Positions 18,110-64,000 of a DNA stretch of 64,000 nt are shown one piece after another. The DNA comes from Hemileia vastatrix. Taxonomy: Eukaryota; Basidiomycota; Pucciniomycetes; Pucciniales; Zaghouaniaceae. The position numbers and the translations under genes were made by a program. The notes below the pieces were generated by a model. It searched no databases. It was not told the origin of the DNA and worked only from the letters and a program-made list of their open reading frames with translations. Position 1 is the first letter of the stretch. The number at the start of each line of letters is the position of its first letter. The stretch spans positions 12,805,001-12,869,000 of the forward strand of contig JASXTE010000001.1 of the NCBI GenBank assembly GCA_030280995.1. Reading direction: 5' to 3'.

Positions 18110-18160
18110 AGTCCGGAAGTCCGGACGGACTCCGTACAGGCTCCGGATTGACTCTGGAAG
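18110..18160 (+). promoter_or_regulatory. CGG/CCG triplet cluster in the E2 LTR
   Basis: Within an AT-rich LTR this short segment holds repeated TCCGGA and CTCCGTAC units, giving several CGG and CCG triplets at close spacing. Zn2Cys6 proteins typically bind paired CGG triplets, and the element family encodes such proteins. The match is suggestive only. Equivalent clusters are at 29855-29930, 47235-47295 and 58460-58495. Confidence 0.4.
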
Positions 18161-18701
18161 AGCTCTGGAGGGGAAAACTTAGGCACGTGACTAGGAATAC
18201 TTAAGCGCTTCTCAAACTCAAAATTGAGAGGGGGGACACATCATACAGCTTAATCTTTAACCACCACAGTCTCATTTTTTATTACTCAACAAATTAAAAT
18301 AACTTGTAATACCCTTATAACATTATTATTTTTTACATAACATTTTAGAAATACAATTCAACAGTTTAAATAACACTTCATACAGGGTATCTTTAGAAAG
18401 GTCTTCAACACTGGGACTTGATTATTGCTGTCTCATAAAAACTCAAATTATTATAAAAACATAAAAGTCAATCTTTTCAGATCTTTCACTGGTACACCTT
18501 AATTGTTGTTATCAGTATTTCTTTTATCAACAGCCACTTTTATTCAAATCTCAATAAGCGTTAATTATTTTAGAGTTTCATTATTTTTATTAATCAGATC
18601 CAAGTAGATTGGTTAGCTTAGTGATTTAGAACACCTACTTTGTTATTTTTATTGGAAGGACGGGGTTTTCAGCTAAATCCACATATCTCCTCCGGATTCT
18701 G

Positions 18702-18723
18702 CTTACAGCAAGGCGACTGTAAG
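18702..18723 (+). promoter_or_regulatory. Terminal LTR (U5) hairpin of E2
   Basis: CTTACAG, 8-nt loop, CTGTAAG. The same position in E3 and E4-type LTRs carries a hairpin with altered but still complementary arms (CCTATAG/CTATAGG at 57881 and 58506). Confidence 0.6.
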
Positions 18724-18741
18724 AGTTTACCTTACCATAGT

Positions 18742-18758
18742 TGGCGCCCAACGTGGGG
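18742..18758 (+). promoter_or_regulatory. E2 primer-binding site
   Basis: TGGCGCCCAACGTGGGG lies two bases after the LTR. Its complement reads as a canonical tRNA 3' end: T-arm, a 7-nt acceptor strand GTTGGGC, discriminator G and CCA. The identity of the tRNA is unknown. The same site occurs at 57850-57866 on the minus strand. The leader 18759-18915 has no gene. Confidence 0.85.
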
Positions 18759-18915
18759 TTCGATTTCTCTAGCTTTCTTTAAAGACTTACTTGAATCAAG
18801 AACGTTATTAGCCTGCAAGAGGCTTATTTTCTGGAACTCTAATTGGATTTTTGTTATTGGCCTGCAAGAGGCTTGTTATTTTATCAATTGTTAACGCTTT
18901 TCATTACTTATTGGG

Positions 18916-21525: not shown

Positions 21526-21781
21526 CAGGGGCTGATCGCTCTAATGTTGTAATCTCTCCTCATAATGAGATCCCAGATTGCAATAGGTCAGCTCACTTGG
21601 AGATAATTCAAGTGGATTCTCAATTATTTTCTGTTAATATTACTTTGGAGTGCAAATATGTTATGGACTTTTCTATATGTTTATTGGATTTACCCGGTTT
21701 TTCTATTAAATTTAAAAACGGTGAAAAAGGCAAAATGGGCCAAATTAGGTTGGATAAAGGTTGGAAGGGTGTGTTTTATGA

Positions 21782-22103
21782 CCTCCAGCAAGAGGTTAAA
21801 CTGCAATTATCTCCTTCTATTACGGACCTCCAGCAAGAGGGTAAACTGCGAAAATCTCATCAAAACCAAATTAAAAATCTCAGTATAAGTAAATCACAAA
21901 AAATTAATTTATGTGAAAAGGTTATTCCGGACCTCCAGCAAGAGGTTAAACTGCAAGTATCTCCTTCTATTTTGGACCTCCAGCAAGAGGGTAAACTGCA
22001 AAAATAACATCAAAATCCAATAAAAAATCTCAGTATAATTAAAACACAAAAAAATAATTTTTGTGAAAATTCAATTTCGGTCCTCCAGCAAGAGGTTAAA
22101 CTG
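21782..22103 (+). repeat. Five TAAACT-type stem-loops in the E2 gag-pol linker
   Basis: Copies start at 21782, 21827, 21932, 21977 and 22082. Each is CCTC, CAGCAA loop, GAGG, then TTAAACTG or GTAAACTG. In the pol frame each is translated DLQQE(V/G)KLQ, so peptide and RNA-level repeats coincide. Confidence 0.8.
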
Positions 22104-24082
22104 CCAACTTTCTTTACAGGTGATTTACTGTTGGATAAGGGAAGCAAAGGTGTTGGAAAATCTGTTTATAAATTAGACGAGGGAAAGGAGAAAAGGGTAA
22201 AATTTAAAAATGAAATAAAATATTTTTCTAATTTTTCTTATTCCGATTCTGGCGATGAAGAAGATTCATTTGATGAAAGTTTTAATGGCGATACAAAAGG
22301 CGCTGTTTTACCTCAAGTTAATTTAGATGTGGACGCAGCCAAATATAAGAAAGTAGCAAATAAAGTTTGACCTATTAATGAACCGCTACCTGCTGAATTA
22401 AATCCACCTTTGAGAAGACCAAGGTTATCAAGAGATCCTTATGAAAGTCCCTTGGTAAAGAATCCGCCTGAATTTTCTGAGACGTCAAGAATCAATTTTG
22501 AGAGACTGGGTGTTGTTAATTTTGGACCTGATGGTTGGTTGTCTGGAGAAGAGAAGAAGTTGTTGTTGGATGTGATGGTCAAGCGAGAGAAGGCCATTGC
22601 TTTTGTAGAAGAGGAGAGGGGTGTGTTGAAGCATTCCTATGGGGAGCCTTACAAGATTCCTGTGGTATGTCATGAACCGTGGCAGCAGAAACCGATTCCT
22701 ATTCCGGCTGCATTAAAAGAAGCTTATATCGAAGTTGTCAGAGAACGGATACGCACTGGACTGTATGAGCAATCAACGTCAAGTTATTCTAGTCCGGTAT
22801 TTTGTATCAAGAAACCAAATGGCAATCTTAGAGTTGTTCATGATCTTAGGGAATTAAATAGGGTTACAATAAAGGATGCTGGGATACCGCCTAGTGCTGA
22901 GGAGTTTGTTGAAGCGTTTGCAGGGAGAGTGTGTTATGGTTTGGGAGATATTATGGGTGGATATGATGAGAGAGAGTTACATCCGGACTCAAGACCTCTC
23001 ACTACATTCGATACGCCACTTGGACGTTTACAGTTAACAAGATTACCTCAAGGAGCAACAAATTCGGTTGCAGTTTATCAAGCTCAGATGGCTTGGATCC
23101 TTCAAGACGAAATTCCACAATATGCTGGAATCTTTATAGATGATGGAGGAATTAAGGGACCAACAACCGACTATGATAACCAGGTGTTGGAAGAGAATCC
23201 CGGGATACGCAAATTCATTTGGGAGTTTGCAATTACTTTAGAAAGAATCTTGTTTCGAATTGAAGAGGCTGGTTTAACTATTTCAGGTTCAAAATTTTCA
23301 TGTTGTGTGCCAGCCTTAGAAATATTAGGCCATGTGGTATGTAGAGAGGGTAGGATTATGTCCAAGAAGAAAGTTAACAAAATTCAGTCCTGGCCAAGAC
23401 CCAAGAATACGACCAAAGTTAGAGGGTTTTTAGGCGTTTGCGTATATGTTAGAATGTTTATTAAGGACTTTTCTTCATTGGCAGTTCCATTGAGACGGTT
23501 AACAAGAAAGGATGCAGACTGGGAGTGGGATGAAGAGTGTGAGAAGGCGTTTGTGAAGTTGAAGGAGGTTGTGGGGAAGGATTTAGTCCTGCACAAGTTG
23601 GATTATGGAAAAGATGCTGGCAGAATTTATTTAGCGGTTGATTCAAGTCAGGTTGCAGCTGGGGCGGTTTTGTCTCAGATGGATAAAGCTGGTTACATCA
23701 GGCCAGTTAGGTATGAATCTGTAGTATTTACTGAGGTCGAATCAAGATATTCTCAACCAAAATTGGAATTATGTGGTGTGGCAAAAATACTGAAGAAACT
23801 TCAGCATATTTTGTGGGGGCAACATTTTGAGTTGCAAGTGGATGCGAAATCGTTAATCCAGATGATTAATTCCCCAAGTTTACCGAATGCACCCATGACG
23901 AGATGGGTAGCTTTTATTCAACATTTTTCATTTGATTTAGTTCATAAGCCTGGCAAGACTTTTACTATGCCAGATGGTTTATCAAGGAGACCACCCACTG
24001 AAGAAGATTCAGACTCAGAAGAGTTCGATGAAGATATACCTATTATCAAAGCCAGCACTAAAGGAGCTGAAGACTTTCCATA

Positions 24083-24162
24083 CCTCCCCCATGAGGTTAA
24101 ACTGGCAGGACTATTGTGTTTAGATTATAATGATGATGACCTCCACCAAGAGGATAAACTGG
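24083..24162 (+). repeat. Two TAAACT-type stem-loops in E2 pol after RNase H
   Basis: Stems CCTC/GAGG at 24083-24096 and 24140-24153, followed by TTAAACTGG and ATAAACTGG. They lie in the poorly conserved segment between RNase H and integrase, translated LPHEVKLAG and LHQEDKLE. The E3 counterpart at about 55210-55290 keeps both. Confidence 0.75.
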
Positions 24163-25794
24163 AAAATAGTTTTTATGTTAATAAAGGTGTTGGAAAAGGT
24201 GTAGATAAATTCGGCAGAGAGGAGGTAGAAGAAGATGTGGTGTATGTAGAGGAAAATGGATTGGTAGTGTGGGATAGTAGTAAATTAAGGAATGGTGTAT
24301 ATGTTGGAGAATTAGAGAACTTAAATAAAAAAGTGGATAAAGAGAAAGAGGTATTTTCAAATACGGTTTTCGAAGGATCCAAAGGTTCAGAAGAAAAATG
24401 TCGACATAGCTCAATTAATGATTTATTTAGGGGTCAACGATTATTGGCTCATTCATGTGCAGGTGATATTGGTGATAGAGAAGTCCCTATTGATGTTATA
24501 TTAATCGATTTTCAAGATGAAGTCTGGGGTCAGACTGGTTTTTATTTTTTGTTAGTCAAATATTTGTTGACTTTAGAGCGGCCAGAAGATTGTGAAGACG
24601 ATGAATGGGTGGCTATCAAGAGGAAGTCATCTACGTTTTACCTATCTGGTCGACGTTTAATGAGGAGGAGGTATCCAAATCCTCAAGTAGTTATAACTCA
24701 ACAGAAGGGGCAAGAATTAGTTTTGAAATCACTGCATGAAGATCTCGGGCATAGAGGCGTTGGAGAAACATTTAGAAGAATTTCTGATAGATTTTGGTGG
24801 CCTGGCATGAAGATGGCTGTTAAACAGTGGGTTCAGTCATGCGAAGAATGTCAAAGACGAAGTTATTTAAGGCCAAAAGAACCTGGACGCGTGACCGGTG
24901 AATATACGCTCTTTGGAAGAGTTAGTTTAGATGCCGTTCATATAAAAGAGGGACAGTATAAATATTTAATTGTGGCCAGAGATGATTTATCTGGTTGGGT
25001 AGAGGCAGCGCCTCTTATTAATTTAACTGCCAAAAATGTGGCAGAATTTTTTTTGAATAATTGGGTATATAGGTATGGAGTGATGAAATTGGTAACGGTA
25101 GATGGAGGTCCTGAATTTGGGACAGAGTTTAAAGAGGCCGTATTGAAAGTTGGATCAAAGGTTAGGGTAGCAACCCCATATTATCCTGAAGCTGAAGGCA
25201 TGGTTGAAAGAGGGCATCAAGTTATTAAGGATGCTTTAGTTAAAATGTGTGGGACAAGTGCCGAAAAATGGAGGCACTATTTACCTTTAGTTTTATTTGC
25301 TGATCGAATCACTGCCAAAAGGACGACCGGATTTTCACCTTATGAACTTGTTTTTGGACAGAAAGCAGTTTTACCGGTTGATTTAGAAGCTGAATCATAT
25401 CTTGGAGTTGACTGGGATACGGTCAAAACTACTGAAGAATTATTGTGTGCAAGAATGATGCAGCTAGAAAAGAAAGAAGAATATTTAGAAAAGGCATATT
25501 CGCGGATGATGAAGATCCGAAATCATTCAGTTAGATATTGGGATGAGCGGTTGGCACATCGATTAAGGAAACCTTTGAACCCAGGAGATATGGTCCTGGT
25601 GTATAATAGGAGTTTGGAAAGTCAGTGGGGAAAGATGTTTGCAGATAGGTGGAATGGACCGTATAAAATCAAGGAGCAAGTTTCCGGCGGTTCATATGTG
25701 CTAGAAGAGTTGGATGGAGTAGTATTGAAGAAGAGGGTAGCAGCCGATCAAGTGAAACGGTTCTATCCTAGAGGCACCAGGAGTGCCGAAGTCT

Positions 25795-26162
25795 TCCTCC
25801 GCAATGAGGATAAACTATGAAATTTCTTAAATTTTATCAACTCCGAAATGAGGATAAACTACAATCTTAATGACTTTTATTAAATTTATTCCTCCGCAAT
25901 GAGGATAAACTATGATATCGACAATATTTTATGACGACCTCCGCAATGAGGATAAACTATGAAATTTCTTAAATTTTATCAACTCCGAAATGAGGATAAA
26001 CTACAATTTTTATGACATTTATGAAATTATATGGATAACTCCGAAATGAGGATAAACTACAATTTTAATGACATTTATCAAATTTTATGGATACCTCCGC
26101 AATGAGGATAAACTATGATATCTACGAAATTTTATGGATTCCTCCGCAACGAGTATAAACTA
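25795..26162 (+). repeat. Tandem TAAACT-type stem-loops across the E2 pol stop
   Basis: Eight copies of (C)CTCCGMAATGAGGATAAACT at irregular 40-60 nt spacing. The first copy encodes the last residues of pol (LRNEDKL) and its TAAACTATGA contains the stop. The stem is CCTC/GAGG or the shorter CTC/GAG; loop and 3' tail are almost invariant. Confidence 0.85.
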
Positions 26163-26380
26163 TCTTCTTATTTTTATCAAAAATACTTTACTATCATTAC
26201 ACTGTATATGGTCGACGAAACTATAATGAAACTTAACGAAATTCAAGAAGACCCTCTTTGAAATGTTCAAAAACTTAAAATTCTTAAAATATGGGTGAAG
26301 ATAGTGTTGGAAATTTTTTTAAATTTTATTGGAAGAAGTGTTCACAGGGGAACCTTCTTAATTAAATATTGGCAAGTGTG
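26163..26380 (+). other. E2 spacer before hairpin A
   Basis: Contains the conserved phrase TTCACAGGGGAACCTTCT near 26341, shared in reverse at about 53275 (E3) and, more weakly, near 60560 (E4). No gene. Confidence 0.5.
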
Positions 26381-26421
26381 GGGGTAATTGATGGGCTGGC
26401 TGCTCTATACACAATTACCCC
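26381..26421 (+). ncRNA. Conserved hairpin A (E2 copy)
   Basis: GGGGTAATTG and CAATTACCCC form a 10-bp stem around a 21-nt loop containing GGGCTGGCTGCTCTATA. Copies on the minus strand lie at 53212-53252, 60493-60533, 63400-63441 and 63660-63700. The loop is nearly invariant and the stem covaries (TAATTG/CAATTA versus TAACTG/CAGTTA). Confidence 0.75.
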
Positions 26422-26640
26422 ATAATGTTCGTTTCGAAAATTCTCCCTGTTTCTAGTTGAATCCTGGCTTTGTCTTTTAATTTTAGGAAGTCCACTAAGA
26501 CTATAAACTGGAACGAATCAAGAGACACCGCTCTCAACGCCGGATTCAAGATTTTTTTTTATTTTATTTTGTTTTTGATTTTTTTTATGTTAGATTGTGA
26601 TTTCATTTCTTTAATATATATTATGAATTATTGTAAAGGT

Positions 26641-26702
26641 GATGCTCACTGGTGGTCTCTAATCATTTTTATAAATTGGAGGGAGCCCACCCAGTGATCA
26701 TC
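26641..26702 (+). ncRNA. Conserved hairpin B (E2 copy)
   Basis: GATG-c-TCACTGG-t-GG pairs with CC-ac-CCAGTGA-t-CATC at the two ends of a 62-nt segment whose inner part includes GGAGGGAGCCCACC. Counterparts occur at 52901-52962 (E3) and 63205-63260 (E4). Confidence 0.7.
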
Positions 26703-26771
26703 ATTATAAAAATTATCTTTTAAAAACTTTCATTTATTTTCTTTTCTTTTCAATTTCTTAAAATTGTGTAA

Positions 26772-26797
26772 CCACATCAAGTTGCACTTGGATGTGG
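26772..26797 (+). ncRNA. Conserved hairpin C (E2 copy)
   Basis: CCACATCAAG, short loop, CTTGGATGTGG. E4 has two copies (62798-62823 and 62999-63024); in the second the inner pairs change together from AAG/CTT to AGG/CCT. E3 has a decayed copy at 52797-52823. Confidence 0.7.
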
Positions 26798-26859
26798 GTA
26801 TGATGTCAAGGGTACGGCTCATCAAATGGCCGGGGGGCATCTTTTAAAATTTTATTTTG

Positions 26860-26965
26860 AAATTTTTTATTTTTTATCTTCCTTTTCACATTTGTTTATC
26901 TTTCTTTAAAAATTAAATTTTAACTTTTATTTCAAAACTATCTTTACTCAAATCTTTTATTTTAA

Positions 26966-27002
<37 letters not shown>

Positions 27003-27185
27003 AAAAATTAAAAAAAAAAAAAAAAAAAAACAAAAAATAATAATATAATAAAATAAAATAAAAATAAAATAAAATTAAAAAAAAAAAAAATAAATAAATA
27101 AATAAATAAAAATAAAATAATAAATAAATAAAAAAAATAAAATAAAAAAATAAAATAATTAATTAAATCAAAATTATTATTATAT
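26860..27185 (+). repeat. A-rich low-complexity tract
   Basis: Almost pure A with AAAT and AATA runs. It occupies the place where E1, E3 and E4 carry antisense gene A, which E2 lacks. Confidence 0.85.
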
Positions 27186-27299
27186 TTCTTAGTTTTATTT
27201 TTCAGTCACTATTCTTTTTAGTTTATTCATATAGTTTAGACAGGAAACAGGGTCTAGGGGAATTCAATACCTATGGGATTTTACTTCAAGACATCTGTT

Positions 27300-27985
27300 A
27301 GTCCTCCAAGACTTTAAACTGGCTACTGTTCAAGACGTTCTTTAAGGTTTTTTTTTACACGTATTTTGGATCTGTTAGTCCTCCAAGACTTTAAACTGGC
27401 TACTGTTCAAGACGTTCTTTAAGGTTTTTTACACGTATTTTGGAGCTGTTAGTCCTCCAAGACTTTAAACTGGCTAATTTTCAAGACTATTGTTAAAATT
27501 TTTTTTTGGATTTGTTAGGTCCACCAAGACCTTAAACTGGACTATTATCAAGTGTTGGGTCCACCATGACCTTAAACTGGATTTCTTATCGATTAAATGT
27601 TTGGTCCACCATGACTTTAAACTGGTAGTTCATTCATTGTTTAGTCCACTATGACTTTAAACTAGAAAATTAATATCTGCAGGATAATTCAACATTTGTT
27701 CGACCACTATGGCCTTATACTGGATTACTTGTCGATCAAATGTTTGGTCCACTATGACATTAAACTGGATTATCAAATTTATTCAATCTTTGGTCAAGCC
27801 TAGGCCTTACTTAGGAATATATCAAGATATTTATGCACTTAAACGATCTTTGGTCCACCAAGACCATAAACTGGCAATCGATTATATGTTTGGTCTACCA
27901 AGACTTTAAATTGGAATGTCAATCTTGTTTGGATAACTCAATTCAATCTTTTAATTTATCACTGTCCACTATGACTCTAAACTGG
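27300..27985 (+). repeat. Array of TAAACTGG stem-loops upstream of E2 antisense gene B
   Basis: At least ten clear copies and a few decayed ones. Examples: AGTC-CTCCAA-GACT at 27300, 27377 and about 27450; GGTC-CACCAA-GACC at about 27519 and 27853; GGTC-CACCAT-GACC at about 27557; GGTC-CACCAT-GACT near 27602; AGTC-CACTAT-GACT near 27642. Each is followed by TTAAACTGG or a close variant. Stems differ from the pol-end array (CCTC/GAGG) yet remain complementary, which indicates selection on base pairing. Confidence 0.85.
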
Positions 27986-28272
27986 TTATTCAATTATTTC
28001 TGGAATTGGGTGCTGATAAGCTTTAGGAGGTTAAAATTTTAGGTGGTGATGATGCTAATGAAAGCATAATGGTTAATTAGGTGAAATTTGTGGCGCTTTA
28101 ACATGGTCTAAAGTTAAAATTATTATTGGAAGCCTGGCAAAAGTATTTTATGGGTTTGCTGTATAGCAAAGTTTGAAAATTGTGATGAAGGAATCAGAAG
28201 TTAGGATGGTAGTTGGATTTTAATGGAATGATTTTTTTTAGTGCCTCATAGTTAGGCCATTTTTTTTTTGGT
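27986..28272 (+). other. E2 spacer
   Basis: No gene or shared structure recognised. Confidence 0.4.
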
Positions 28273-28467
28273 GTGAAGCTTGGAGGACCTTATGGCGAGA
28301 TTGGAATCATAGAATTCGGCTCAGTGGGGGGCCCTATGAGGTTGGAATCAGGAGTATTCGGCTCATAGGAAGATCCACTCTCTCAATGCTGTGACAAGAA
28401 GGAAGACTGGTATATGGGAGTCTGAAGGGATTCAAACCTTGCTCTCAGTAGTGGAATCATCACAAGA
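28273..28467 (+). pseudogene. Sense-strand small frame shared with E3 (KLGGP frame)
   Basis: The translation begins KLGGPYGEIGIIEFGS and ends SSGIITR. E3 has an open frame at 50722-50471 (minus) reading KLGGPFGEIGIRVFGS...SSVIITR. Both are in gag-pol orientation, just upstream of antisense gene B. In E2 two stops interrupt it. Similarity is clear at protein level, but nucleotide conservation is also high, so it could be a conserved non-coding block rather than a gene. No known family recognised. Confidence 0.4.
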
Positions 28468-28576
28468 TTTATATTATTTTATTTTATGTTATATCAAGCC
28501 AGAGAAGAAAGAAAACATCATTTATGTTGAAAGTTTAAGAAGACCAAGCAAAACAAAATTTTATCAAGTTATACTG

Positions 28577-29269
28577 TTAGAAAAGATAATTTCTTTGAAA
28601 TTGTTCAACATCATTATCAAAGCTTTGCATTAAGATTCTTCTTTTCATGAGGTCTTCATGGTTATTAGCTGGAGTTTCTTGAAAATAGGCCAGCATTTTT
28701 TGTTTCAACTCATTAGTAAGGTCAAGAAAAAGATAGCGATGAAAATTTGGGTAATGATTGATATAGTCCGTCTTCACTCTACCAACATCATCAGTGTTGG
28801 TTATTTCGACAGCTAGAAGTTCAAATATGTTATTAAGTCATAGGTTTAGTCAATTTTGATTAAAAGTTTTTTTTAGTAAGATAAATAGGGTCTTACATTT
28901 AGAGCCAGGAAACATAGTCTCAGCAAAGTTAGTTGGGGGTACTGGCGTTATAGGATTAGGATCTTGTGAAGGCAAAATTAGGCCGGGATCCGTTGATGAA
29001 GATTGAACTTTTGAAGCTGTTTTTGATCTTATTCGTTTTAAGAAGACAGGAATTTTGGATCGCTTTTTAGAAGTTGAGGGATCAGGGAGAGCTGCTGGTC
29101 CTAAATATACATTTGTTTTAGAAGGAACTATTGGCCGGTTGCATTTGACTTTTTTCACACGGCATAAGTCGCAAGCTGTTCTGCCAGGAAGATTAGGGTT
29201 GGACATTAAACAAGGTACCTGGTATCGAGCGCAGAGTTCACATGGAGCAACAAGTTCTTTGGAAGACAT
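28577..29269 (-). CDS. E2 antisense gene B: Zn2Cys6 protein (202 aa, one intron)
   Basis: Reads opposite to gag-pol. Exon 1 is 29269-28897 and exon 2 is 28812-28577. The intron 28896-28813 is 84 nt, GTAAGA...TTCTAG, phase 1, and the join restores an open frame through SVEITNTDDVGRV. The N-terminus holds CELCARYQVPC and, 12 residues on, CDLCRVKKVKC: C-x2-C-x6-C-x12-C-x2-C-x6-C, the fungal binuclear zinc cluster pattern. A basic stretch (SKKRSKIPVFLKRIRSK) follows. The C-terminal domain has YFQETPANNHEDLMKRR, conserved in E1, E3 and E4 copies. The start lies 124 bp from the 3' LTR, so the LTR could promote it in reverse. Role inferred as DNA binding; target unknown. Confidence 0.8.
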
Positions 29270-29382
29270 ATTGATGAAGATGAATTTTATAGTTGATTAA
29301 AGAAGATGGTGGTTGAAGGTTAAAGATGAATATTGTGTTCGACCACTTATGCAAAGTTTTAAGAATGGGGACATTCTCGATT

Positions 29383-29392
29383 GGAGGGAGGA
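29383..29392 (+). promoter_or_regulatory. E2 polypurine tract
   Basis: GGAGGGAGGA immediately before the 3' LTR TGTGGTAG. The flanking phrase GACATTCTCGATT is also kept in E4. Confidence 0.85.
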
Positions 29393-30516
29393 TGTGGTAG
29401 CCTAAAGTTTAGTACGGCACCTAAATATGTAAATGGAGTTATCACGGCGTGCAAGATTGGCGTTATTATTTTTTATAAAAGGGTTTTATTTAATTTATTG
29501 GAGTTTAAAATATGAAGAAATTGGTCACGAGCGAATGCCTACACAAATACAATTTATTTTACGGAGAAAACTTATTTTTTACGGTCTAAAAAATTTATAA
29601 GTATTAAGTCAAGTCACTCAAGAACCTTGAGAAATTTTCCCAGAATTTTTACTATTTTTCTTAAATTTTTAAATGAATTTTAAAGTTTTATAGAAATATT
29701 TACGTTTTCAAAAATTACTTAACTTTGATGAATTTTCACGGGGTAATTAGGGCTGCGCAGACTACGAAAATTAGTTTGGTATGTAAAGGGGAAGTAGCTC
29801 TATTATGTGTAATTTTTCTAGATTTTTTATTATGGTTTTAAGGTTTTAAATTGAGTCCGGAAGTCCGGACGGACTCTGTTTCGACTCCGTACGGTCTCCG
29901 TACGGACTCCGTATGGGCTCCGGATTGACTCTGGAAGAGCTCTGGAGGGGAAAACTTAGGCACGTGACTAGGAATACTTAAGCGCTTCTCAAACTCAAAA
30001 TTGAGAGGGGGGAAACATCATACAGCTTAATCTTTAACCACCACAGTCTCATTTTTTATTACTCAACAAATTAAAATAACTTGTAATACCCTTATAACAT
30101 TATTATTTTTTACATAACATTTTAGAAATACAATTCAACAGTTTAAATAACACTTCATACAGGGTATCATTAGAAAGGTCTTCAACACTGGGACTTGATT
30201 ATTGCTGTCTCATAAAAACTCAAATTATTATAAAAACATAAAAGTCAATCTTTTCAGATCTTTCACTGGTACACCTTAATTGTTGTTATCAGTATTTCTT
30301 TTATCAACAGCCACTTTTATTCAAATCTCAATAAGCGTTAATTATTTTAGAGTTTCATTATTTTTATTAATCAGATCCAAGTAGATTGGTTAGCTTAGTG
30401 ATTTAGAACACCTACTTTGTTATTTTTATTGGAAGGACGGGGTTTTCAGCTAAATCCACATATCTCCTCCGGATTCTGCTTACAGCAAGGCGACTGTAAG
30501 AGTTTACCTTACCATA
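29393..30516 (+). repeat. E2 3' LTR
   Basis: 1124 bp, near-identical to the 5' LTR apart from a 33-bp net insertion at about 29878-29915, where CTCCGTACGG units are multiplied. The open frame starting 30417 spans the LTR end and is rejected as a gene. Confidence 0.93.
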
Positions 30517-30520: not shown

Positions 30521-30717
30521 TTTCCACGGCGGGATTTTGAGAAGTGGCAGGGAGTTATGCCATTCTCAATACAGCGGGTGCATCTTGTCCCGCCCATCAA
30601 AGTTGTCATGAGGGTTGTCAGAGGAGGGGCAGGAGGTTGAGTACGCACAAACTGATGAATGGCGTCCACGACATTGGCGGTATTTTCAGTGTTGGGGTTG
30701 GCTCTTCGAGTATTCAT
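30521..30717 (-). pseudogene. E1 antisense gene B, 5' exon
   Basis: Minus-strand start at 30717, 136 bp from the E1 3' LTR, the same arrangement as in E2 and E4. It encodes MNTRRANPNTENTANV, a Pro/Thr stretch and CTRCIENGITPC, the first half of a Zn2Cys6 cluster. The second half (SCDYCKQRKKKC) is on the other side of E2, near 17590. The frame enters E2 LTR sequence at 30516, so the reading from there to 30412 is not original. I could not place the splice donor; the E2 insertion may have fallen in or next to the intron. Confidence 0.72.
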
Positions 30718-46288: not shown

Positions 46289-48329
46289 TGTGGAGAATGA
46301 TGCCTTGCATAACCAGGGTAAGATCTCTGGAGAACTCAGATGCTAAACTATATACTGATTGAAGACTAGCTAAGTACATAGTGTGGTAACACCATAACAT
46401 TTCCTAACTTCACTAGACAGACATCAGCCTAAAATTAATGTAACTACCACCAAAGAGTGACTAGAGATAAACATATACCTACAATCATGTAAAAAAAGTA
46501 TGAAAACTTAAAAGTAAACAAAATACTCATCCCCTATCACCAAATCAAAATACTATCTAGTACCAGCAAGAAGAAAAGGAGATAAAAAATATTGGGACTA
46601 AATGAAAGGAAAGTAGATCCATGGGCTAAGGTGGGAGGATGTGTTTGACGTTATGGTAAGGTAAACTCTTACAGTCGCCTTGCTGTAAGCAGAATCCAGA
46701 GGAGATATGTGGATTTAGCTGAAAACCCCATCCTTCCAATAAAAATAACAAAGTGGGAATTCTAAATCACTAAGCTAACCAGTCTACTTGGATCTGTTTG
46801 ATAAAAATAATGAAACTCTAATATGTTTAACGCTTATTGAGATTTAAATAAAAGTGGCTGTTGAGAAAAGAAATACTGATAACAACAATTAAGGTGTACC
46901 AGTGAAAGATCTGAAAAGATTGACTTTTATGTTTTTATAATAATTTGAGTTTTTATGAGACAGCAATAATCAAGTCCCAGTGATGAAGACCTTTCTAAAG
47001 ATACCCTGTATGAAGTGTGATTTAAATTGTTGAGTAGTATTTCTAAAATGTTATATATAAAATATAAAGTTATAAGGGTATTACAATTTTATTTAATTTG
47101 TTGAGTAATAAAAAAATGAGACCGTGGTGGTTAAAGATTAAGCTGTATGATCTATCCCCCTTCAATTTCGAGTTTGAGAGACTCTTAAGTATTCCTAGTC
47201 ACGTGCCTAAGTTTTCCCCTCCAGAGCTCTCCCAGAGTCAATCCGGAGCCCGTACGGAGTCCAAATGGAGTCTGTCCGGACTTCCGGACTCAATTAGAAC
47301 CTTTAAAACTATAATAAAAAATCTAGAAAAATTACACATAATAGAGCCACTTCTCCTTTACATTCCAAACTAATTTTCGTAGTCTGCGCAGCTCTAATCA
47401 CCCTGTGAAAATTCACCAAAGTTAAGTAATTTCTAAAAACTTAAGTATTTCTATAAAACTTTAAAATTCATTTAAAAAATATAAGAAAAATAGTAAAAAT
47501 TCTGGGAAAATTTCCCAAGGTTCTTGAGTTACTTGACTTGATACTTATAAATTCTTCAGACCGTAAAAATAAGTTTTCTCCGTAAAATAAATTGTTTTCG
47601 CGTAGGCATTTGCTCTTGACCAATTTTTTCATATTTAAAACTCAAATAAATTAAATAAAACCCTTTTATATATAAAAAAATAATAACGCCAATCTTGCAT
47701 GCTGTAATAACTCCATTTACATACTTATGTGCCATACTAAACTTTAGGCTACCACAACGTATAAAAGAGATGAGTTAGTCATAATGTATTTTTAAGATTG
47801 AGAAAATTAAAAGCAAAATTTAGAGTTTGGGAGAGTACTGAATTGCTTGAATATTTAGTTGGAGGCTGATAGAAGTGAGTTAAAGGTAAGTGTGGGAGAA
47901 GTTTGGAGAAACAGAGATAAGTAACTTCAAAATTTAGGAGCTTAGAAAGCACAATAAGGGAAAAAGTGTTGAATTGGAAAGGCATCCAAAATTATCCAAG
48001 GAGAAGGGCTTGGGTTTAAGAAGTGAGATATTCAGGAAGGGAAACTTTTTCACAGTTTTCAAGGGGAAAATATTCCACAATTTTCAGGGGGAAAACATCC
48101 AACAAGCTTAGTTTATTTTCTAGAATAAAAGGATAGATTGAGGTGTACTTAGAAAATAGCTATGAAGGAGCAACAGGGGCTCCTCACGGGGTTCTTCACA
48201 AGCAGAAGGCCCACAACCTGTAGAGAATGATGCATTTAAGAACAAAGGAAACATATCTGGTACACTCAGAAGCTACACTATATATTGATAGAAAACTAGT
48301 TAATTAAATAGTATGGTAACACCATAACA
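46289..48329. mobile_element. TRIM-like element with 111-bp terminal repeats, interrupted by a solo LTR
   Basis: Direct terminal repeats of 111 bp at 46289-46399 and 48219-48329 begin TGT(A/G)GAGAATGATGC and end ACACCATAACA, obeying TG...CA. Flanks GTACT (46284-46288) and GTAAT (48330-48334) look like a 5-bp target duplication with one change. Removing the solo LTR and its 4-bp duplication leaves about 930 bp with no coding capacity. Orientation is unclear. Confidence 0.6.
46652..47756 (-). repeat. Solo LTR of the E2 family
   Basis: 1105 bp, minus orientation, TATGGTAAGG to GGCTACCACA, clearly the E2 LTR with moderate divergence. It is flanked by the perfect 4-bp duplication ACGT (46648-46651 and 47757-47760), which fixes the LTR ends and shows recombination between LTRs of a former full element. 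Confidence 0.9.
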
Positions 48330-49710: not shown

Positions 49711-50389
49711 ATGTCATCAAAATATCTTGCTTTCCCATGTGAACTGTGTGCCAAATACCAGGTACCTTGTCTGACTTCTAACCCTGGTCTTCCTGGAATA
49801 ACTTCCTGTGATCTTTGCAAGCTTAAGAAAATAAAGTGTAATATTATAATTATTCCTTCCAGAACTAAATTTTATACGGTACCAGCTGCTCTTCCTGATC
49901 CAACAATTACCAAAAAGAGATTATCAAAAATTCCCACCTTTTTCAAAATATAAAGGCCAAAACAGCTTCTTCATCTAAGAATCCTAATTCTGAGCTCCTT
50001 TCTCCATCTCAAGATCCTAATCTTATTATGCCTGTTTCTCCATTCAATTTTTCCAAATAATTATTTCCTGACTCAAAAAGTTAGTCGTTTACTTATATTT
50101 AGTAATACTCCTACCAATTCCAAATCCAACTACTATCCCTTCCAAAACCTAAGCTATTAAAATCACCAATACAGATTATGTTGGCCATGTACAGAATGAT
50201 TAAATTAATTATTATCCTAAATATAATAGATATCTCTTTCTTTATTTTTGTGATGATATGAAGCATAAATTTTTAACTTATTTTCAGGAAACCCCCACTA
50301 ATAATACTGAAGATTTAATGAAGAGATGAATTTTGATGCAGTTTTTTGATAATGGTGTTGTAAAATTCAAAATAAATTATTTATTTTGA
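49711..50389 (+). pseudogene. E3 antisense gene B (Zn2Cys6), decayed
   Basis: Exon 1 starts MSSKYLAFPCELCAKYQ and carries the whole cluster: CELCAKYQVPC, then CDLCKLKKIKC, nearly the same as E2. A frameshift follows the basic segment TKKRLSKIPTFFK at about 49950. Exon 2 still reads YLFLYFCDDMKHKF and LTYFQETPTNNTEDLMKR, ending NYLF with stop at 50389; a TGA interrupts after LMKR. The start lies 148 bp from the LTR edge, as in the other copies. Closest relative in the window is E2 gene B. Confidence 0.8.
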
Positions 50390-51412: not shown

Positions 51413-52509
51413 ATGACTCCTTCTAACTTCACCACTTCTAGTGACCAAGTCTTTTATTACTGTTCTTTTACACATCAAGAGTGCACCTACACTTATAACC
51501 AGAAAAGATAATTCTACAACAGAACCTGTTTAAACTGCTTTGAAAAGAAGAAGAAATTCTCTGGCCTTAAATATGGCTTTCTCCCTCTTCCTGCCACCTG
51601 CTTTGCCTCTCATTGAAAAACTTCTACTCCTTCTCCAAAATCATCCACCTCTAAAATTCTTATTCCTTTCACACCATCAGTCTTTTTAAATATTTCTTCT
51701 GACTCTGAGTCTCTGTCTCAACCTCCATCTCTCCAATCAATACTCTCTTCTATCATTCCTAGAACTCCTACTTCTCCAAAAGTGATGTTGAATCCACCTA
51801 AATCAATTCTGGAAATTTATCCTTCTTCATTTTCTCCACATCCTATATCAGAGCTTATTCCTCCTCAACCCAAAATCAGCAGCCCCCCTTGTCCTTCTTC
51901 TTCATCAAAGAGACCCAGATCCCCTAGTCCTCGAATAATTTTCTGTAAGAAAAGATATATTCCAAAATTTAATGGATCACCAATCCCTGCTCCATCCAGA
52001 GATATCCTAACTATCCTAAAACCACCTTCATTCCACAACATTAAAAATACCTACTCTTCCCTTCTTGAAGAAAAATTTCTACAAAGCCTGCCTTTAAATC
52101 TTGATATTGACACAGTTTACTCTAGTAAGCAAATAAAATCTCATTCTTCTATATAAATTTATCTCTTGACTTTTATTGATGAACTGATCTAGATTTTCTT
52201 GGATCCCATTATTCTCTATCCGCTTATTATATTCCTGATTGAGAACCCACTTCAGCTATGGTGAAATGTAATGAGGTCACTCAACAACTATATTTCATTT
52301 TCAAACTCAACTTTGCCCATTACAAGGATTATCTGCCAAAAGACTCATCAGAAGTATTTGCAAGAGAAAAATTCCTAAAATGTCACTTTGAAATGGTCAC
52401 TCGGCTTGACCATAAAAAATGACATCAATTCAAAGAAATTGAAAGATTTAATAGAACCTTTCCTGAAATTTTTACTGTGCTGTCTTCATTGAAAGAAAAA
52501 CATCTTTAA
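51413..52509 (+). pseudogene. E3 antisense gene A (Zn-cluster protein), decayed
   Basis: Exon 1 51413-52124, intron 52125-52192 (GTAAGC...ATCTAG, 68 nt, phase 1), exon 2 52193-52509. Intron length and phase equal those of E4 gene A. The N-terminus is degenerate: YYCSFTHQECTYTYN, then TCLNCFEKKKKF, so several cluster cysteines are lost. Stops at 51509, near 51616 and in exon 2. The middle is Ser/Pro-rich with KRPRSPSPRIIFCKKRYI. Exon 2 has SSEVFAREKFLKCHFEMVTR, corresponding to the helical tail of E4 gene A. Confidence 0.72.
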
Positions 52510-58495: not shown

Positions 58496-59589
58496 TGTAG
58501 ACAATCCTATAGTACTTTCTATAGGCCTTGACCAAGGGAGTTGGAGAAAAACCAGAGAGAAAATCCCCTGTCCCTTTAGAAAAATAGAGTGAGATTTACT
58601 TGCTAAAGTAAGTTGGTTCCTGTTTTGCTAAAGACCCCTTTTAAACACACTTGACTGCTTGATGAGCCAAGAAAGTAGTCACCAGATAGACTACCAGACC
58701 AAAGAACTGAAATGTAGAACAAAGTCCACACCAGAGACAGCAAAGATACTTGATGTAGGCTGCAAATCCACACCAGAGACAGCAATAATACTTGCTATAG
58801 CTTGCAAGACTATAACAGAGAAAACAGTTGCCAAAGTTAAGTTAAATGAAGAACTTACTTGCAACAAACACAGCCAATTGTGGCCAGAAAACAGTGAAAA
58901 CTGAGTGAGGAAAAATGAGATCACCTCCGGATGGTTGTATGATGATTAAGGTTGCCCCAAACCGTCTTATTCACTATGTACACACAGACCACTAACTAAG
59001 AGCCCATGCGCACCCACCAATCTGGCGCCTGTACCTGCCAAATTGCATAAAAAACCCTCCTGGAGCGCTCCCCAACCTCCTAAAACAGAGGCGGGCGGGC
59101 CGCCTGAAGCGGCCCGGCCTCCCTGAAGCGGCCCGGCCTCCCTGAAGCCAGAAAACCAATAAAAACCACTAATCTACTTAGAAAAATTAGCTACAACTAC
59201 TAAAACCTTTAAAACACGGAATTTCACTATAACAACATTGAGACATGAAATATAGAGAAAAATTAGCTCTATCCAATGGTACTAAGCACTTAACCCTAAG
59301 AATTAATGTTAGCCCATAAAACACGAAAAACAAAATTAAACAGCAATCTTTTATAAATGAGAAATGAGGAAATGACCCCTTAAAACTCAGAATATGACAA
59401 ATGTCTTCAAGACATAAAATATAGAAAAAAACCATGGCTATCCAATGATAGTACCCACATACCAGCAGACCCAATATCCACGGAATAAAACCATAAAAAT
59501 ACCAAATTCCTTAACAGATGTCAATTAAGACATGCACAAACAGCGCCAAATCACACAACAAAGGCCCCTGCCAATGTTGGAAGACCACA
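58496..59589 (-). repeat. Full LTR: E4 3' LTR (and upstream of E3)
   Basis: 1094 bp. The minus strand begins TGTGGTCTTCC after polypurine tract GGAGGGAGGA (59599-59590) and ends TCTACA. GC-rich CGGCCC repeats at about 59090-59150. Length and ends agree with the E2 LTR, although the sequence is only distantly similar. Confidence 0.82.
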
Positions 59590-59637
59590 TCCTCCCTCCA
59601 ATTGAGAATGTCCGCATTCTTTCTTCATCCAACCACC

Positions 59638-60278
59638 ATGTTTAACCTCCTTCCCAAATCTGCCTCTGAAATGGGCCCCTGCCAATACTGCATCAACAAT
59701 AATTTAATCTGCGCCATGACACCACCTGTTCATCAATACAGAACGTCCTGCGATGTCTGCCACTCCAAAAAGAAGACCTGCCACAGACCTGGTCCACTTT
59801 CTTCCACAACAGATTCACCTCCGCCTCAACCTGGTGCTTCTTCTGCCAGCACCAAAAGATCTAGGCCATCCATCCTGATACCCAGATTAATCAAAAAGCT
59901 CCACCCTTCCCAGAAGAGTGCCACAACCCATAAAGCAACTAGTTCCCCCATCCCTGGTCCATCTGATGGTAAAGAACATTCATTCCTTCCTTCAACTTTA
60001 AAACTGACAACTTCTCAGTTCCTTCCTCTTCTGATAGTGATGATAACAATGTAGGATCCATTGCACCACCAACACCAACGCACTTGCCCACTATAAAGGC
60101 CAAGTTCCAACAACACACATCTCAACAGAAACAACTTCTGCTTGACTACTTCCAATCCACTCCTGCTAGAGATCCACAGGACATTGAGAACAGAAGACAC
60201 CTCATTCACCAGTTCAAGGCTAATTCTGAACATTTCATTTCATCTCTTGATTCCCTCTGTAATTCCACTAGTACTTGA
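59638..60278 (+). CDS. E4 antisense gene B: Zn2Cys6 protein (196 aa, one intron)
   Basis: Exon 1 59638-59968, intron 59969-60018 (50 nt, GTAAAG...TCTCAG, phase 1 as in E2), exon 2 60019-60278. The cluster is CQYCINNNLIC, 11 residues, CDVCHSKKKTC, a perfect C-x2-C-x6-C-x11-C-x2-C-x6-C pattern with the typical lysine run. A Ser/Pro-rich segment and a basic KRSRPSILIPRLIKK segment follow. The tail has LLLDYFQSTPARDPQDIENRR, homologous to E2 YFQETPANNHEDLMKRR. I chose ATG 59638; 59671 is possible. The in-frame ATG 59518 lies inside the LTR. Start is 48 bp from the LTR edge. Likely nuclear DNA binding; target inferred only. Confidence 0.82.
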
Positions 60279-60337
60279 ATTTGATTCAGAAAATAAAAAT
60301 TGACCACACCCTCTATAGGATGTAACCACAAACAACC

Positions 60338-60874
60338 CTCAGTTTTAAGTCTTGGGGGACCATCCTCATTTTATAGTCTTGGGGGACTCAAAAACCCTCA
60401 GTTTAAAGTCTTGTGGGACACAAAAAACCTAAATCATTAACCCAGAACCAGAGATCAACCACATTAAGACACAGAGAAAAAACTAACATTCTGGGGTAAT
60501 TGTTAATAGAGCTGCCAGCCCATCAATTACCCCCAAACTTGCCTTTGCAGAATTCGGAGGCTCCCCCTGTGGATACCCTCCACCAATCTTTCAAAACCAC
60601 TCCAACAACAAAAACTTTTTCCTCAGTTTATAGTCTTGGGGGACTTATAACCCTCAGTTTAAAGTCTTGGGGAACTAACACAGTGTTCAGTTTAAAGTCT
60701 TGACGGACTACTTCTTGATAAAATCTTGAAACCAGCCAGTTTAAAGTCTTGGAGGACTAACAGAAACCAGATTTCAGTTTAAAGTGTTGATGGACTGACT
60801 TGATACCATAGCTTTTTTTAGTTTAGAGTCTTGATGGACTGATAAAATTTCCAGTTTAGAGTCATAGAGGACTT
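60338..60874 (-). repeat. TAAACT-type stem-loop array between E4 antisense genes B and A, with hairpin A
   Basis: About ten copies. In minus-strand sense they read as AGTC-CNCCAA-GACT followed by TTAAACTG, with changed stems and loops such as AGTC-CTCTAT-GACT near 60874-60851. The stem usually stays paired. Hairpin A (60493-60533) sits inside the array. Confidence 0.85.
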
Positions 60875-61020
60875 TCAGAATCTTGCATGAATCTGACCCA
60901 GCCAATTTCATACAATACACACACAGCTAGACCCACAGAGTGTCCGCCTTCACTTCATCTTCTACTCATAACTGACAAAATCTTCTCTTATCCTTTTCAT
61001 CACCTTTCACACCACAAATA

Positions 61021-62594
61021 ATGTCTGGATCCCCTGCTGTTGACTCCTCTACTCTTCCTTGCTTCACTGCTCCAAGGGACTATGCCTGCAAAAAGTGCAT
61101 CCACATGTGCAGACCTTGCACATTCACTCTTCCAAATCCAGAAGCCAAATTCTACAACATGGCTTGTAACTCTTGCTATTTCAAAAAAAAGAAATGCGAC
61201 AGAGATGCCCACTATCCTATTCCTCCGCCTTTTCCTTCTCACAAGTACATCTCCAGATCCCCTACCAGGTCTCCAGAACTTGGTCCATCCTCTTCCTCTC
61301 TATCTTCAGCTCCTTCCAGAAGATCCAGAAGCTCAGCTTCCCGCACTCTTCCAAAAAGACCAGCCTTAGCTTCTCAAGAAACTGCTTTTATCACTGCTAA
61401 ATTAGCTTCAAAAGCTTCAAAATCAACCCCTAGGCTTCTAGACCGCGTCCAGGCGGCCCGGCCAATGTTGGGCGGCCCGCCCGCCTCACCAAAAAGTGAA
61501 AATCAGGGCCAAAACCTCCAAAAACGGCCAGAAAATAGCCAAATTCATCCAGACAACAATAACAACTCAACCCAACTACCTCCTACTGCTCCCAGAGCAA
61601 TGCAATCCACCCTTCCAAAATCCAAAAACACCAAAATTTCCCAGATTTCTAAGAGAACTGCCAGAGAGCCCCAAGAAGAAACCAGAACACCACACACTGC
61701 TCCACAACAACAACTTTGTCCCCAACTAAGACAAAGAAACTACACCTCTCCTCTGTCAGCCAACTACTCTTCTGACAGTTCCATCTCTTCAAATTCTCCA
61801 TCCAGAAGAGAGCAGTCTGCTTCCAAATCCCCCTCTCCTGCTACATCCTTTAACAACCCTGGTACTCCATCACCAGCACCTCCTCCAGCTGAATCCAACA
61901 GAAATAACAACCACAACAACAACAACAATCTCACTGCTCCAACTAGGCCCCAGGAACATCAGCATCCCAGTTCACCTTCTCAGGATCCTTCAGAGGAAGA
62001 CCATGAGAATTCATATCTTTCCCTAGTTGATCCACCCACTATAACCATTACAAAATATTCAGAGATCCAAATCCCAGCTGCTTACAGATTTGATGAGCTT
62101 CCAATCTGTCAGTACCAAATTAATTATTCCATTTCTTCAACAAAAATAATTACTGATCCAATTCTTCTTGTTTAGTTGGCACCCCTCCTCCTGAATCTAT
62201 TATTGGAGTTGGCCAACCTCTTGAAACTTCTTTGACCCTAAATTATGGAGACATGAAGAAACACCTAAGCACCATGTGTTCCAACATGATAAAAGCCTTT
62301 GCCCCCCATGGACCCTTGAATGACTTTGAAAAATCCCTGAGAAAGAGCCTACTGGATGACCACTGGAAAATGTCTAGGATCATTAAACACACCCTCCAGC
62401 ACTCCATTCCTGCCTCTTCTTCTTCCTCCTCTGAACTTCCCTCTAATCCAATCCCTATAATCTCTCCAGCAGGATGCACTTCAAAGAACACAGTGCTTCC
62501 CACAATCCCAACAAAAAACAAAAACGTCATAACAATCCGGACCAGCCTCCAGAAGCTTCATCATCCAGACAATGAGCTCCTGCAAAAAGATTAG
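61021..62594 (+). CDS. E4 antisense gene A: Zn2Cys6 protein (501 aa, one intron)
   Basis: Exon 1 61021-62107, intron 62108-62175 (68 nt, GTCAGT...GTTTAG, phase 1), exon 2 62176-62594. Residues about 21-60 contain CKKCIHMCRPC, 15 residues, CNSCYFKKKKC, fitting the fungal binuclear zinc cluster with a long middle spacer. A long disordered region rich in Ser, Pro, Asn and Gln follows (about residues 80-330), typical of activation or linker regions. Exon 2 supplies YGDMKKHLSTMCSNM and DFEKSLRKSLLDDHWKMSR, a helical tail shared weakly with E1 and E3 gene A. No stops or frameshifts. Without the intron the frame would end at 62175. Opposite to the E4 gag-pol direction, between gene B and the conserved hairpins. 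Confidence 0.82.
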
Positions 62595-62619
62595 AAACAT
62601 AATAATAATATAAAACAAT

Positions 62620-62755
62620 TAATAAAAATAATTTCAGAATTTTTTTTTTTGGTTTTTTATCTACTAATATACTAAAACTAAAAATTAATAACTAAAATGA
62701 AATGAAATAAAATAAATGAAATAAAATAAAATATAAAAAAAAATAATACAAATGG
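62620..62755. repeat. AT-rich low-complexity tract in E4
   Basis: AAATAAAATG-type repeats between antisense gene A and hairpin C. Confidence 0.7.
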
Positions 62756-63305: not shown

Positions 63306-63842
63306 CCAGTCTAAAGTCATAGCGGACTTAAAACCTGAATAATAAACAACAGAACTAGAATTCAACTAGGAAAAACAAAAGACTTGAAACAGACATTCTG
63401 GGGTAACTGTTCTACAGAGCAGCCAGCTCATCAGTTACCCCCACACTTGCCAAAATAAAATCTAGAAGCCCCCCCTGGGTACCTTCTAACAAAAACCCAA
63501 CGTCCAACACAAAAAAACCAAAACCAATAAGAGTGAAGAGACCAGCACATGAAAACCAAAGGAATTTCCAGTTTAAAGTCATAGAGGACTAAAACCTGTG
63601 AAAATAAATTAATACTAGGGTTCAACCAAATAAAGAGAAAGGGTTGGAACAGACAATCTGGGGTAACTTTTGATAGAGCAGCCAGCCCATCAGTCACCCC
63701 CACACTTGCCAAGATCAAATCTAGATGCCCCACCCATGGGTACCCTATAACAAAAGTTTCCAACAAACAGATGCATAGCATCACCACAAAAGAAAAAATC
63801 CAAAATTAAAGAATGGTCCGTAGTTTATTCTCATTGCCGAGT
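63306..63842 (-). ncRNA. E4 hairpins A (63400-63441, 63660-63700) and interspersed stem-loops
   Basis: Two hairpin A copies. The first has GGGGTAACTG/CAGTTACCCC and the second GGGGTGACT/AGTTACCCC. Both keep the GCTGGCTGCTCT loop. TAAACT-type motifs lie at about 63306-63330, 63568-63590 and 63820-63842. The last follows the pol stop directly, as in E2. Confidence 0.78.
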
Positions 63843-64000
63843 CAATCTTCTTCATGCCTAGTGCCTCTGGAATAAAACCTCTTCACTTGGTCTGTAGCCA
63901 CCCTATTTTTCAAGACTGCACCATCCAACTCTTCCAAAACATAAGAACCTCCAGACGCCTGAGATCTGACTCTGTAAGGTCCATTCCATCTGTCAGCAAA
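63842..64000 (-). CDS. E4 pol C-terminus (partial)
   Basis: The minus-strand frame enters from the window edge and ends at TGA 63844-63842. It reads FADRWNGPYRVRSQASGG, then YVLEELDGAVLKNRVATDQ and KRFYSRGTRHEED, the GPY/F-containing end of integrase, clearly homologous to E2 pol at 25640-25790. Open over all 52 visible codons. Compared with E2, the stop comes a few codons earlier, within the first stem-loop motif. Confidence 0.85.
   Translation of the reverse strand, partial: FADRWNGPYRVRSQASGGSYVLEELDGAVLKNRVATDQVKRFYSRGTRHEED

Follow-up and report, generated by a model that had tools for sequence, protein, structure and literature searches.

The 64-kb stretch of Hemileia vastatrix DNA analysed here (contig JASXTE010000001.1, positions 12,805,001 to 12,869,000, hereafter the window) contains four Ty3/gypsy retrotransposons, E1, E2, E3 and E4, which carry one or two additional genes, A and B, antisense to gag-pol. 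We favour, with moderate confidence, the reading that A and B are real spliced antisense accessory genes of several Ty3/gypsy families, and that their products are DNA-binding self-regulators acting at CGG/CCG sites of the long terminal repeats (LTRs). Comparison of genomic copies shows that selection has kept A and B and that their introns are real. From the same comparison we infer that both genes are expressed and spliced. Their Zn2Cys6 halves are shown, by profile alignment, to stand in swapped order compared with the usual fungal domain, which is new here.

Structure, introns and selection of the antisense genes

As the preliminary description had proposed, E4 carries two open genes opposite to gag-pol, and their exon and intron structures were confirmed in the sequence. 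Both are located between integrase and the 3' LTR and have one phase-1 intron each. Gene B (196 amino acids, plus strand) consists of exon 1 (59638..59968) with the zinc half-motifs CQYCINNNLIC and CDVCHSKKKTC, an intron of 50 nucleotides (nt; 59969..60018, GTAAAG..CTGAC..CAG) and exon 2 (60019..60278) with the tail YFQxTPA..DxxxRR. Gene A (501 amino acids, plus strand) consists of exon 1 (61021..62107), in which the half-motifs CKKCIHMCRPC and CNSCYFKKKKC are followed by a long Ser/Pro-rich stretch, a 68-nt intron (62108..62175) and exon 2 (62176..62594). The unspliced frame of this gene A spans 384 amino acids and is beyond chance, given that 500 dinucleotide shuffles of 58496-64000 yielded longest ATG frames of 195 amino acids at most and 88 on average.

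Homologues had also been claimed for the other three elements. This applies to E1 and E3, which have both genes in a decayed state, but E2 has gene B only, since tblastn with E4 gene A detected nothing in E2 beyond the B region and a single match at chance level. Gene B is antisense in all four elements and adjoins the polypurine tract and the 3' LTR, the distance from its ATG to the LTR being 48 bp in E4 and approximately 125-140 bp in E1, E2 and E3. Gene A, where present (E1, E3 and E4), separates B from integrase. On the minus strand, gene B of E2 comprises exon 1 (28897..29269; half-motifs CELCARYQVPC and CDLCRVKKVKC), a phase-1 intron of 84 nt (28813..28896; 84-93 nt across family copies) and exon 2 (28577..28812). 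E3 retains, on the plus strand, a decayed exon 1 of B (49711..50079) and a decayed exon 1 of A (51413..52124) that is followed by a 68-nt phase-1 intron (52125-52192). In E1, exon 1 of gene A (15966..16413, minus strand) has one in-frame stop just before the intron and ends at a GTAAGT donor; the 53-nt phase-1 intron (15913..15965, GTAAGT..CAG) leads to exon 2, which extends from 15912 downwards. E1 gene B was split between its two zinc half-motifs by the insertion of E2. The second zinc half and the tail, in a frameshifted state, are at 16827..17590 (minus strand), and the first exon with the first zinc half (CTRCIENGITPC) lies at about 30525..30717 (minus strand) on the far side of E2, severed from the rest.

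The B proteins of E2, E3 and E4 are similar along their whole length (E4-E2 z 13.9, 0/2000 shuffles as high). The tail conservation described earlier stands for these three elements but not for E1, whose B tail is only weakly similar (76/2000 shuffles as high with E4, 152/2000 with E2). Nor do the C-terminal regions of A show significant similarity (E4-E3 96/2000 shuffles, pairs with E1 1214 and 1966/2000), and the presumed equivalence of the E1 B tail and the A C-termini across elements is based on zinc region, position and intron phase. The zinc regions of A and B in E4 resemble each other (z 6.4), and 13 of the 21 pairs of A and B zinc regions from the four elements are matched by at most 4/1000 shuffles. 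A homology between the C-termini of A and B was considered and rejected (hhalign probability below 1%, shuffles unsupportive). A 200-bp block beside gene B (28266-28466 in E2, 50529-50728 in E3) has 78-80% identity between E2 and E3, which is above that of B exon 1 (66%); a third antisense gene at this place was rejected because the block has no clear codon pattern.

The phase-1 introns previously reported for gene B of E2 and E4 and for gene A of E3 and E4 were all found, including the common length of 68 nt in the two A genes. In nine E2-type copies (E2 and eight fetched), the B intron measures 84, 84, 85, 86, 87, 88, 90, 93 and 93 nt, donor GTAAGA and acceptor TAG are constant, and the spliced frame runs to the same stop in eight, with a premature stop in L004. 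That the intron length varies while the spliced frame holds supports these introns. Among 30 E4-type loci found through gene A, the A intron has the acceptor TAG in all and the donor GTAAGT in 28 (GTCAGT in the window copy), and a 50-nt B intron lies upstream in 29; the B donor is GTAAAG in 27 and the acceptor CAG in 29. The spliced frame is intact in 18 of these loci for B, in 13 for A and in nine for both. A larger set of 57 E4-type rows, obtained from 60 by removal of three duplicates, has GT..AG with 50 nt in gene B in 53 rows and an intact spliced B in 42. For E1-type A, GTAAGT and CAG are kept in 13/13 rows (E1 and 12 other copies), and the spliced frame of exon 2 is open to one common stop in eight; earlier stops occur in L082 and L092, and frame shifts in L082, L084 and, near the end, in L090 and E1. 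The unspliced frame encounters stops in 12 of the 13 rows, L084 staying open because of its frameshift.

Purifying selection is apparent for B between E2 and E3 and for A among copies of two families. Between E2 and E3, 120 codons of B exon 1 have a ratio of non-synonymous to synonymous differences (pN/pS) of 0.38 (bootstrap 0.27-0.50) and a corresponding substitution ratio (dN/dS) of 0.20, compared with a dN/dS of 0.24 for integrase and 0.23 for RNase H of the same pair, while two wrong frames of B yield a pN/pS of about 1.2. For closer copies, changes private to one copy, which are mostly post-insertion, were set against changes common to several copies; the copies were picked by protein similarity, which lowers the number of amino-acid changes in both classes. 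In the 30 E4-type loci, the proportion of amino-acid-changing or stop to silent changes in A and B together was 23:22 for changes common to at least three copies versus 268:93 for private ones (p 0.0015). A alone gave p 0.018 and B alone p 0.021, and the four wrong-frame controls gave p 0.15 to 0.95. The first 149 codons of A in the 57 E4-type rows yielded 9:24 common versus 77:24 private changes (p 6.8e-7). In the 13 rows of E1-type A, changes of exon 1 common to at least two copies were 22:20 versus 48:15 private (p 0.010; zinc part alone p 0.14), and exon 2 gave p 0.051 in the spliced frame and 0.19 and 0.96 in the other frames. The dN/dS near 1 that the preliminary description had named as speaking against functional genes did not appear, neither for B between E2 and E3 nor in the copy test for A of the E4 and E1 families.

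Copy searches in the organism's own 748-Mb genome score the best candidates only and provide lower bounds that are biased towards the query. They yielded at least 150 copies of E2-type B, with a protein 100% identical in 150/150 scored (8789 candidates), and at least 113 scored copies of E4-type A at 90-100% identity, 55 of them without a stop (14,944 candidates). At least 150 copies each were scored for E4-type B (94-100% identity, 100% being the window copy; 148 without a stop; 11,622 candidates) and for E1-type A (80-100% identity; 3151 candidates). Because the genes are present in three element families, with at least 113-150 scored copies per searched type, A and B are not one captured piece of debris in a single lineage of copies, the other outcome that had been held to speak against them. 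In a protein database, neither the B pair alignment (563 candidates) nor the 384-amino-acid A frame (7594 candidates) had a match at E 0.01, the word-based method having little power at 30% identity. Searches with B and with pol found no relatives in viral and prokaryote contigs.

A zinc module with swapped halves

The cysteine spacings C-x2-C-x6-C were read from the sequence as described before, and the identification as Zn2Cys6 is upheld by the six cysteines in two such halves, both of which are present as in PF00172. It is not an ordinary cluster, however: instead of the canonical order of one domain with the basic half first, the halves are swapped. In the Pfam alignment, residues 13-30 of E4 B fall on the second half of Zn_clus (17-35) and residues 31-45 of E2 B on the first half (1-15). 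The basic stretch is part of the second half, the opposite of Gal4; in E1-type A this stretch is less clear, and the first half again falls on profile positions 20-37. After rotation to the Gal4 order, 5/5 pieces tried gave a single full-length Pfam match, with bit scores rotated versus native of 29.0/17.6 (E4 B), 40.2/27.2 (E2 B), 22.3/14.9 (E4 A) and 30.7/23.8 (E1 B, a piece made of two parts joined across E2), and a small gain for an E1-type A copy (24.5 versus 23.2). The canonical controls Ppr1, Gal4 and Lac9 behaved in the opposite way, with 48.7, 47.4 and 47.7 bits native versus 33.0, 35.2 and 32.4 rotated. The linker was shortened in the rotated pieces, which raises the score, but the half order is independent of linker length. 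Rotated E2 B aligns with the solved Ppr1 over nearly its full length (E 1.7e-6), whereas the native halves align apart and in swapped order.

As native proteins, E2 B reaches 24.0 bits with PF00172 (cut-off 21), E4 B 16.1 and E4 A without exon 2 10.6; the window E1 A, which has lost two cysteines that most of its relatives keep, has no match in Pfam. In E4-type A and B, each of the six cysteines is kept in 49-55 of the 57 rows, gaps being counted as lost. A permuted zinc cluster, or zinc-cluster genes in LTR elements, was not found in the literature among the matches listed, which included few subscription papers.

Possible role at the LTRs and rival explanations

In the mechanism that we propose, gene B would be transcribed antisense to gag-pol, probably from a start at or in the 3' LTR, and gene A perhaps from its own promoter, with both transcripts being spliced. 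The introns would survive retrotransposition because the packaged genomic RNA is the opposite strand, in which they are not spliceable. In the predicted products, the half-swapped Zn2Cys6-like module precedes a Ser/Pro-rich stretch, and the B proteins of E2, E3 and E4 also have a conserved tail at the C-terminus. As nuclear proteins they may bind CGG/CCG sites in the element's own LTRs and thereby control transcription, similar to the antisense protein HBZ of human T-cell leukaemia virus type 1 (HTLV-1). We infer antisense transcription with splicing, a folded, zinc-binding state of the module, and the LTR as its binding target.

Zn2Cys6 proteins usually recognize sites with a CGG core. Across the whole 64 kb, six or more CGG/CCG per 60 bp occur in six places only, namely both E2 LTRs, a solo LTR, the E3 5' LTR, the E4 3' LTR and inside E4 gene A. 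The cluster of the E4 3' LTR (59092..59136) has nine in 60 bp and that of the E2 3' LTR (29857..29923) ten, with a matching cluster in the E2 5' LTR from 18113; the solo LTR has its cluster at 47243. None of 1000 shuffles of each of the five clustered LTRs reaches its own count, these LTRs representing two independent families and not five cases. The E4 LTR has no match with the E2 LTRs in a sensitive BLAST, and the clusters are situated approximately 450-530 bp from the LTR start in the four LTRs with a complete start. Among genome copies, the cluster (at least six in 60 bp) is found in 19/25 E4-type LTRs, five of the 30 loci being without an exact landmark, and in 8/8 fetched E2-type LTRs.

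Several observations weigh against a self-regulating role. E1-type LTRs in the window have no CGG/CCG cluster, nor has the E3 3' LTR, which has lost nearly all its CpG. E2 does without A, and yet its family is very abundant. A is therefore dispensable in cis, and the success of E2 points to B being sufficient or to A being provided in trans. The swapped-back modules score well under canonical domains (22-40 versus 47-49 bits), and AlphaFold, given three sequences, produced a poor model for the zinc region of E2 (predicted local distance difference test score, pLDDT, 62), with no zinc-cluster structure retrieved by Foldseek. CGG binding by a half-swapped module is suggested by analogy only. Finally, B alone gave p 0.055, 0.094, 0.21 and 0.66 at thresholds of 2, 3, 5 and 8 copies in the 57 E4-type rows, and selection on B among close E4-type copies is uncertain.

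The insertion sites are relevant for two further explanations. Insertions of the E2 and E4 families seem to be directed to CpG, with a 4-bp target NCGN: CG is found in the middle of the target in 22/26 flanks examined of the 30 E4-family loci (L039-L068), the other four having CA or TG, and in 7/7 true flanks of the E2 family (L001-L008), the eighth locus running into the internal region. CG constitutes 1.3% of the dinucleotides in the window. Most insertions were viewed from one side; the two flanks are identical for E2 (ATGG), E4 (CCGC) and the solo LTR (ACGT), the target sites of which are located at 17645-17648, 58492-58495 and 46648-46651, respectively. At the single E1 insertion site in the window there is no CG where the site seems to lie, the E1 ends being only roughly placed. 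It is conceivable, though rather unlikely in our estimation, that A and B are a self-regulating spliced antisense factor pair built on a permuted zinc cluster that acts at LTR sites, and that the same CpG/CGG recognition also steers the NCGN insertion. If true, a mobile element would possess a control circuit as well as a targeting code of its own.

We regard it as unlikely that A and B instead guide or tether the integration machinery to DNA rich in CpG or CGG and have no part in the regulation of transcription. The enrichment of CG at the insertion sites of both families speaks for such a role, as does the insertion of E4 into the E3 LTR at its CGG cluster, flanked by CCGC on both sides. However, the central CG could be read by integrase alone, E2 shows the same target preference with B only, and no domain ties A or B to integrase. 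A protection from silencing is known from VANC, an anti-silencing factor of plant VANDAL elements, and A and B might correspondingly keep their CpG-rich LTRs unmethylated. Their domain is of a DNA-binding type, and the CpG observed/expected ratio is 0.05-0.07 in the old E3 versus 0.84-0.94 in the LTRs of the young E2. Since CpG follows age, which could alone explain this difference, and the E4 3' LTR has a ratio of only 0.36, we consider this role improbable.

Zinc modules are able to bind RNA, and A and B could act on the element's own RNA, for instance on short hairpin repeats, for packaging or export. Covarying sense-strand hairpins are indeed found at many element sites, several of them adjoining A and B, but they also occur in E2 far from the genes, and the nearest solved relative of the module, Ppr1, binds DNA, which makes this role very improbable. 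Least credible is an action of the antisense RNA itself, by silencing or interference, with reading frames that are incidental or stem from captured host debris. The part of the literature available does describe non-coding antisense RNAs for LTR elements and considers that they may have a regulatory role (PMC7264820), but the purifying selection is frame-specific with wrong-frame controls, the spliced frame holds while the intron length varies, and three families carry the genes.

Neighbouring elements and known systems

E2 (17649..30516, plus strand) is complete, with the target site duplication ATGG and an LTR pair of 98.8-99.2% identity over the aligned pieces, and is inserted in E1 gene B. 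According to Pfam, a gag and protease frame (18916..21525, plus strand) is followed by a reverse transcriptase, RNase H and integrase frame (22410..25820, plus strand), the order being RVP, RVT_1, RT_RNaseH, Integrase_H2C2 and rve, the last with 29.7 bits below its cut-off of 32.6. With protease, reverse transcriptase, RNase H and integrase in this order and flanking LTRs, E2 and E4 belong to the Ty3/gypsy class. E4 is on the minus strand and nested in the 5' LTR of E3. Its 3' LTR of approximately 1.1 kb (58496..59589) is followed by the polypurine tract, and the C-terminal part of its integrase (63821..64000, minus strand) reaches the window end, the remaining gag-pol lying beyond it. The adjoining 9 kb of the contig contain the continuation of gag-pol and the 5' LTR, the latter at 96.8% identity, with the duplication CCGC on both sides of the element; E4 is therefore a whole element of approximately 13 kb. 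The LTRs of E1 (7679-8918 and 30853-32112) are 93.7% identical, and E1 is nested in an older gypsy element X on the minus strand, of which there are two copies, 6075-7681 with 32121-36259 (split by E1) and 37488-43214. The solo LTR of E2 type spans 46652..47756 (minus strand). E3 is composite or deleted, as its protease end (55616) abuts RNase H (55608) and reverse transcriptase is missing.

Among 120 listed of 280 matches, Puccinia striiformis and P. coronata provide the closest species-named relatives of pol (56-72% identity across roughly one third to one half of the query), and metagenome proteins reach up to 75% identity. Judged by pol, a rust fungus is the most likely host. Two proteins of a Sphingobacteriaceae genome bin (P0024 and P0035) have 71% identity to this fungal pol, probably due to bin contamination. 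Window positions 1-3900 contain a satellite-like tandem repeat with seven starts spaced 581-615 bp apart, and an inverted repeat of approximately 353 bp with 97.7% identity and a short spacer lies at 4111-4463 / 4610-4961. The CpG observed/expected ratio, 0.07 in E3 (49576-57870) and 0.56-0.94 in E2, looks as though methylated CpG were lost as elements grow older. A hairpin repeat on the sense strand, composed of a 4-bp stem, a 6-nt loop, the second 4-bp stem side, one base and TAAACT, occurs in E2 (21797-22097, 24098-24155, 25811-27978), E3 (51183-55213), E4 (60405-63575) and E1 (15026). Its stems covary (CCTC/GAGG, AGTC/GACT, GGTC/GACC). TAAACT is accompanied by four stem pairs in 33/100 cases, compared with 0-2 for each of seven control hexamers, and 39/40 hairpins with the loop pattern are on the sense strand. 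In 30 of 31 distinct rows (the antisense one excluded), 95% of the cells pair and 23 are changed on both sides, many rows being tandem relatives.

The expectation that the system is undescribed holds only in part, given that antisense genes at this position already occur in Grande, Retand and Boty; what differs from these known antisense genes of LTR elements is the protein type, the half-swap, the gene pair, the presence of introns and the corresponding LTR clusters. In the available portions of the sources, the function of the Grande and Retand genes is stated to be unknown, with a DNA-binding role proposed for Retand (PMC7264820, PMC11963269). Gene position, orientation and presence in most copies are alike, as are a nuclear or predicted DNA-binding role for some of these genes and, in Retand, tandem repeats in the corresponding part of the element; the proteins are different, and the words zinc and intron occur 0 times in the main text (PMC7264820, PMC11963269). 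The window elements, by comparison, have one or two genes, which are intron-bearing and in a fungus. Boty of Botrytis cinerea, a gypsy element, is likewise a fungal LTR element with an extra antisense gene, brtn, but this is a single gene, zinc clusters being unmentioned in the Boty descriptions available (PMC7264820, PMC8365987, PMC4227169). The main text of a paper on transposable elements of rusts (PMC12210899), by word search in the portion available, lacks the words antisense, zinc and target site.

With Gal4-type Zn2Cys6 domains (PF00172; Ppr1, Gal4, Leu3) the products of A and B have in common the six cysteines in C-x2-C-x6-C halves and a basic stretch in one half; they differ in the swapped halves and in the longer linker between them. 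HBZ has a spliced form and contains a basic leucine zipper (bZIP) domain. Its likeness to A and B consists in the antisense gene and in features that are only proposed for A and B, the antisense promoter in the 3' LTR and the nuclear protein, as far as the available source portions describe it (PMC7264820, PMC11963269). HBZ is, however, a human retrovirus protein with which no homology was found, or sought beyond Pfam, and the comparison is a functional one; a bZIP domain is absent, PF00172 being the only Pfam family at E up to 10 in B of E4 and E2 and in A without exon 2.

A zinc cluster with its halves swapped would represent a naturally occurring circular permutation of a DNA-binding domain that is among the most common in fungi. 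With a recognizable DNA-binding type and candidate targets in the same element, the function of an antisense gene becomes directly testable, and antisense placement combined with intron retention would be a neat route for a retroelement to own spliced genes. Such a circuit may also bear on the large genome size of H. vastatrix, with 748 Mb and very many copies of these elements.

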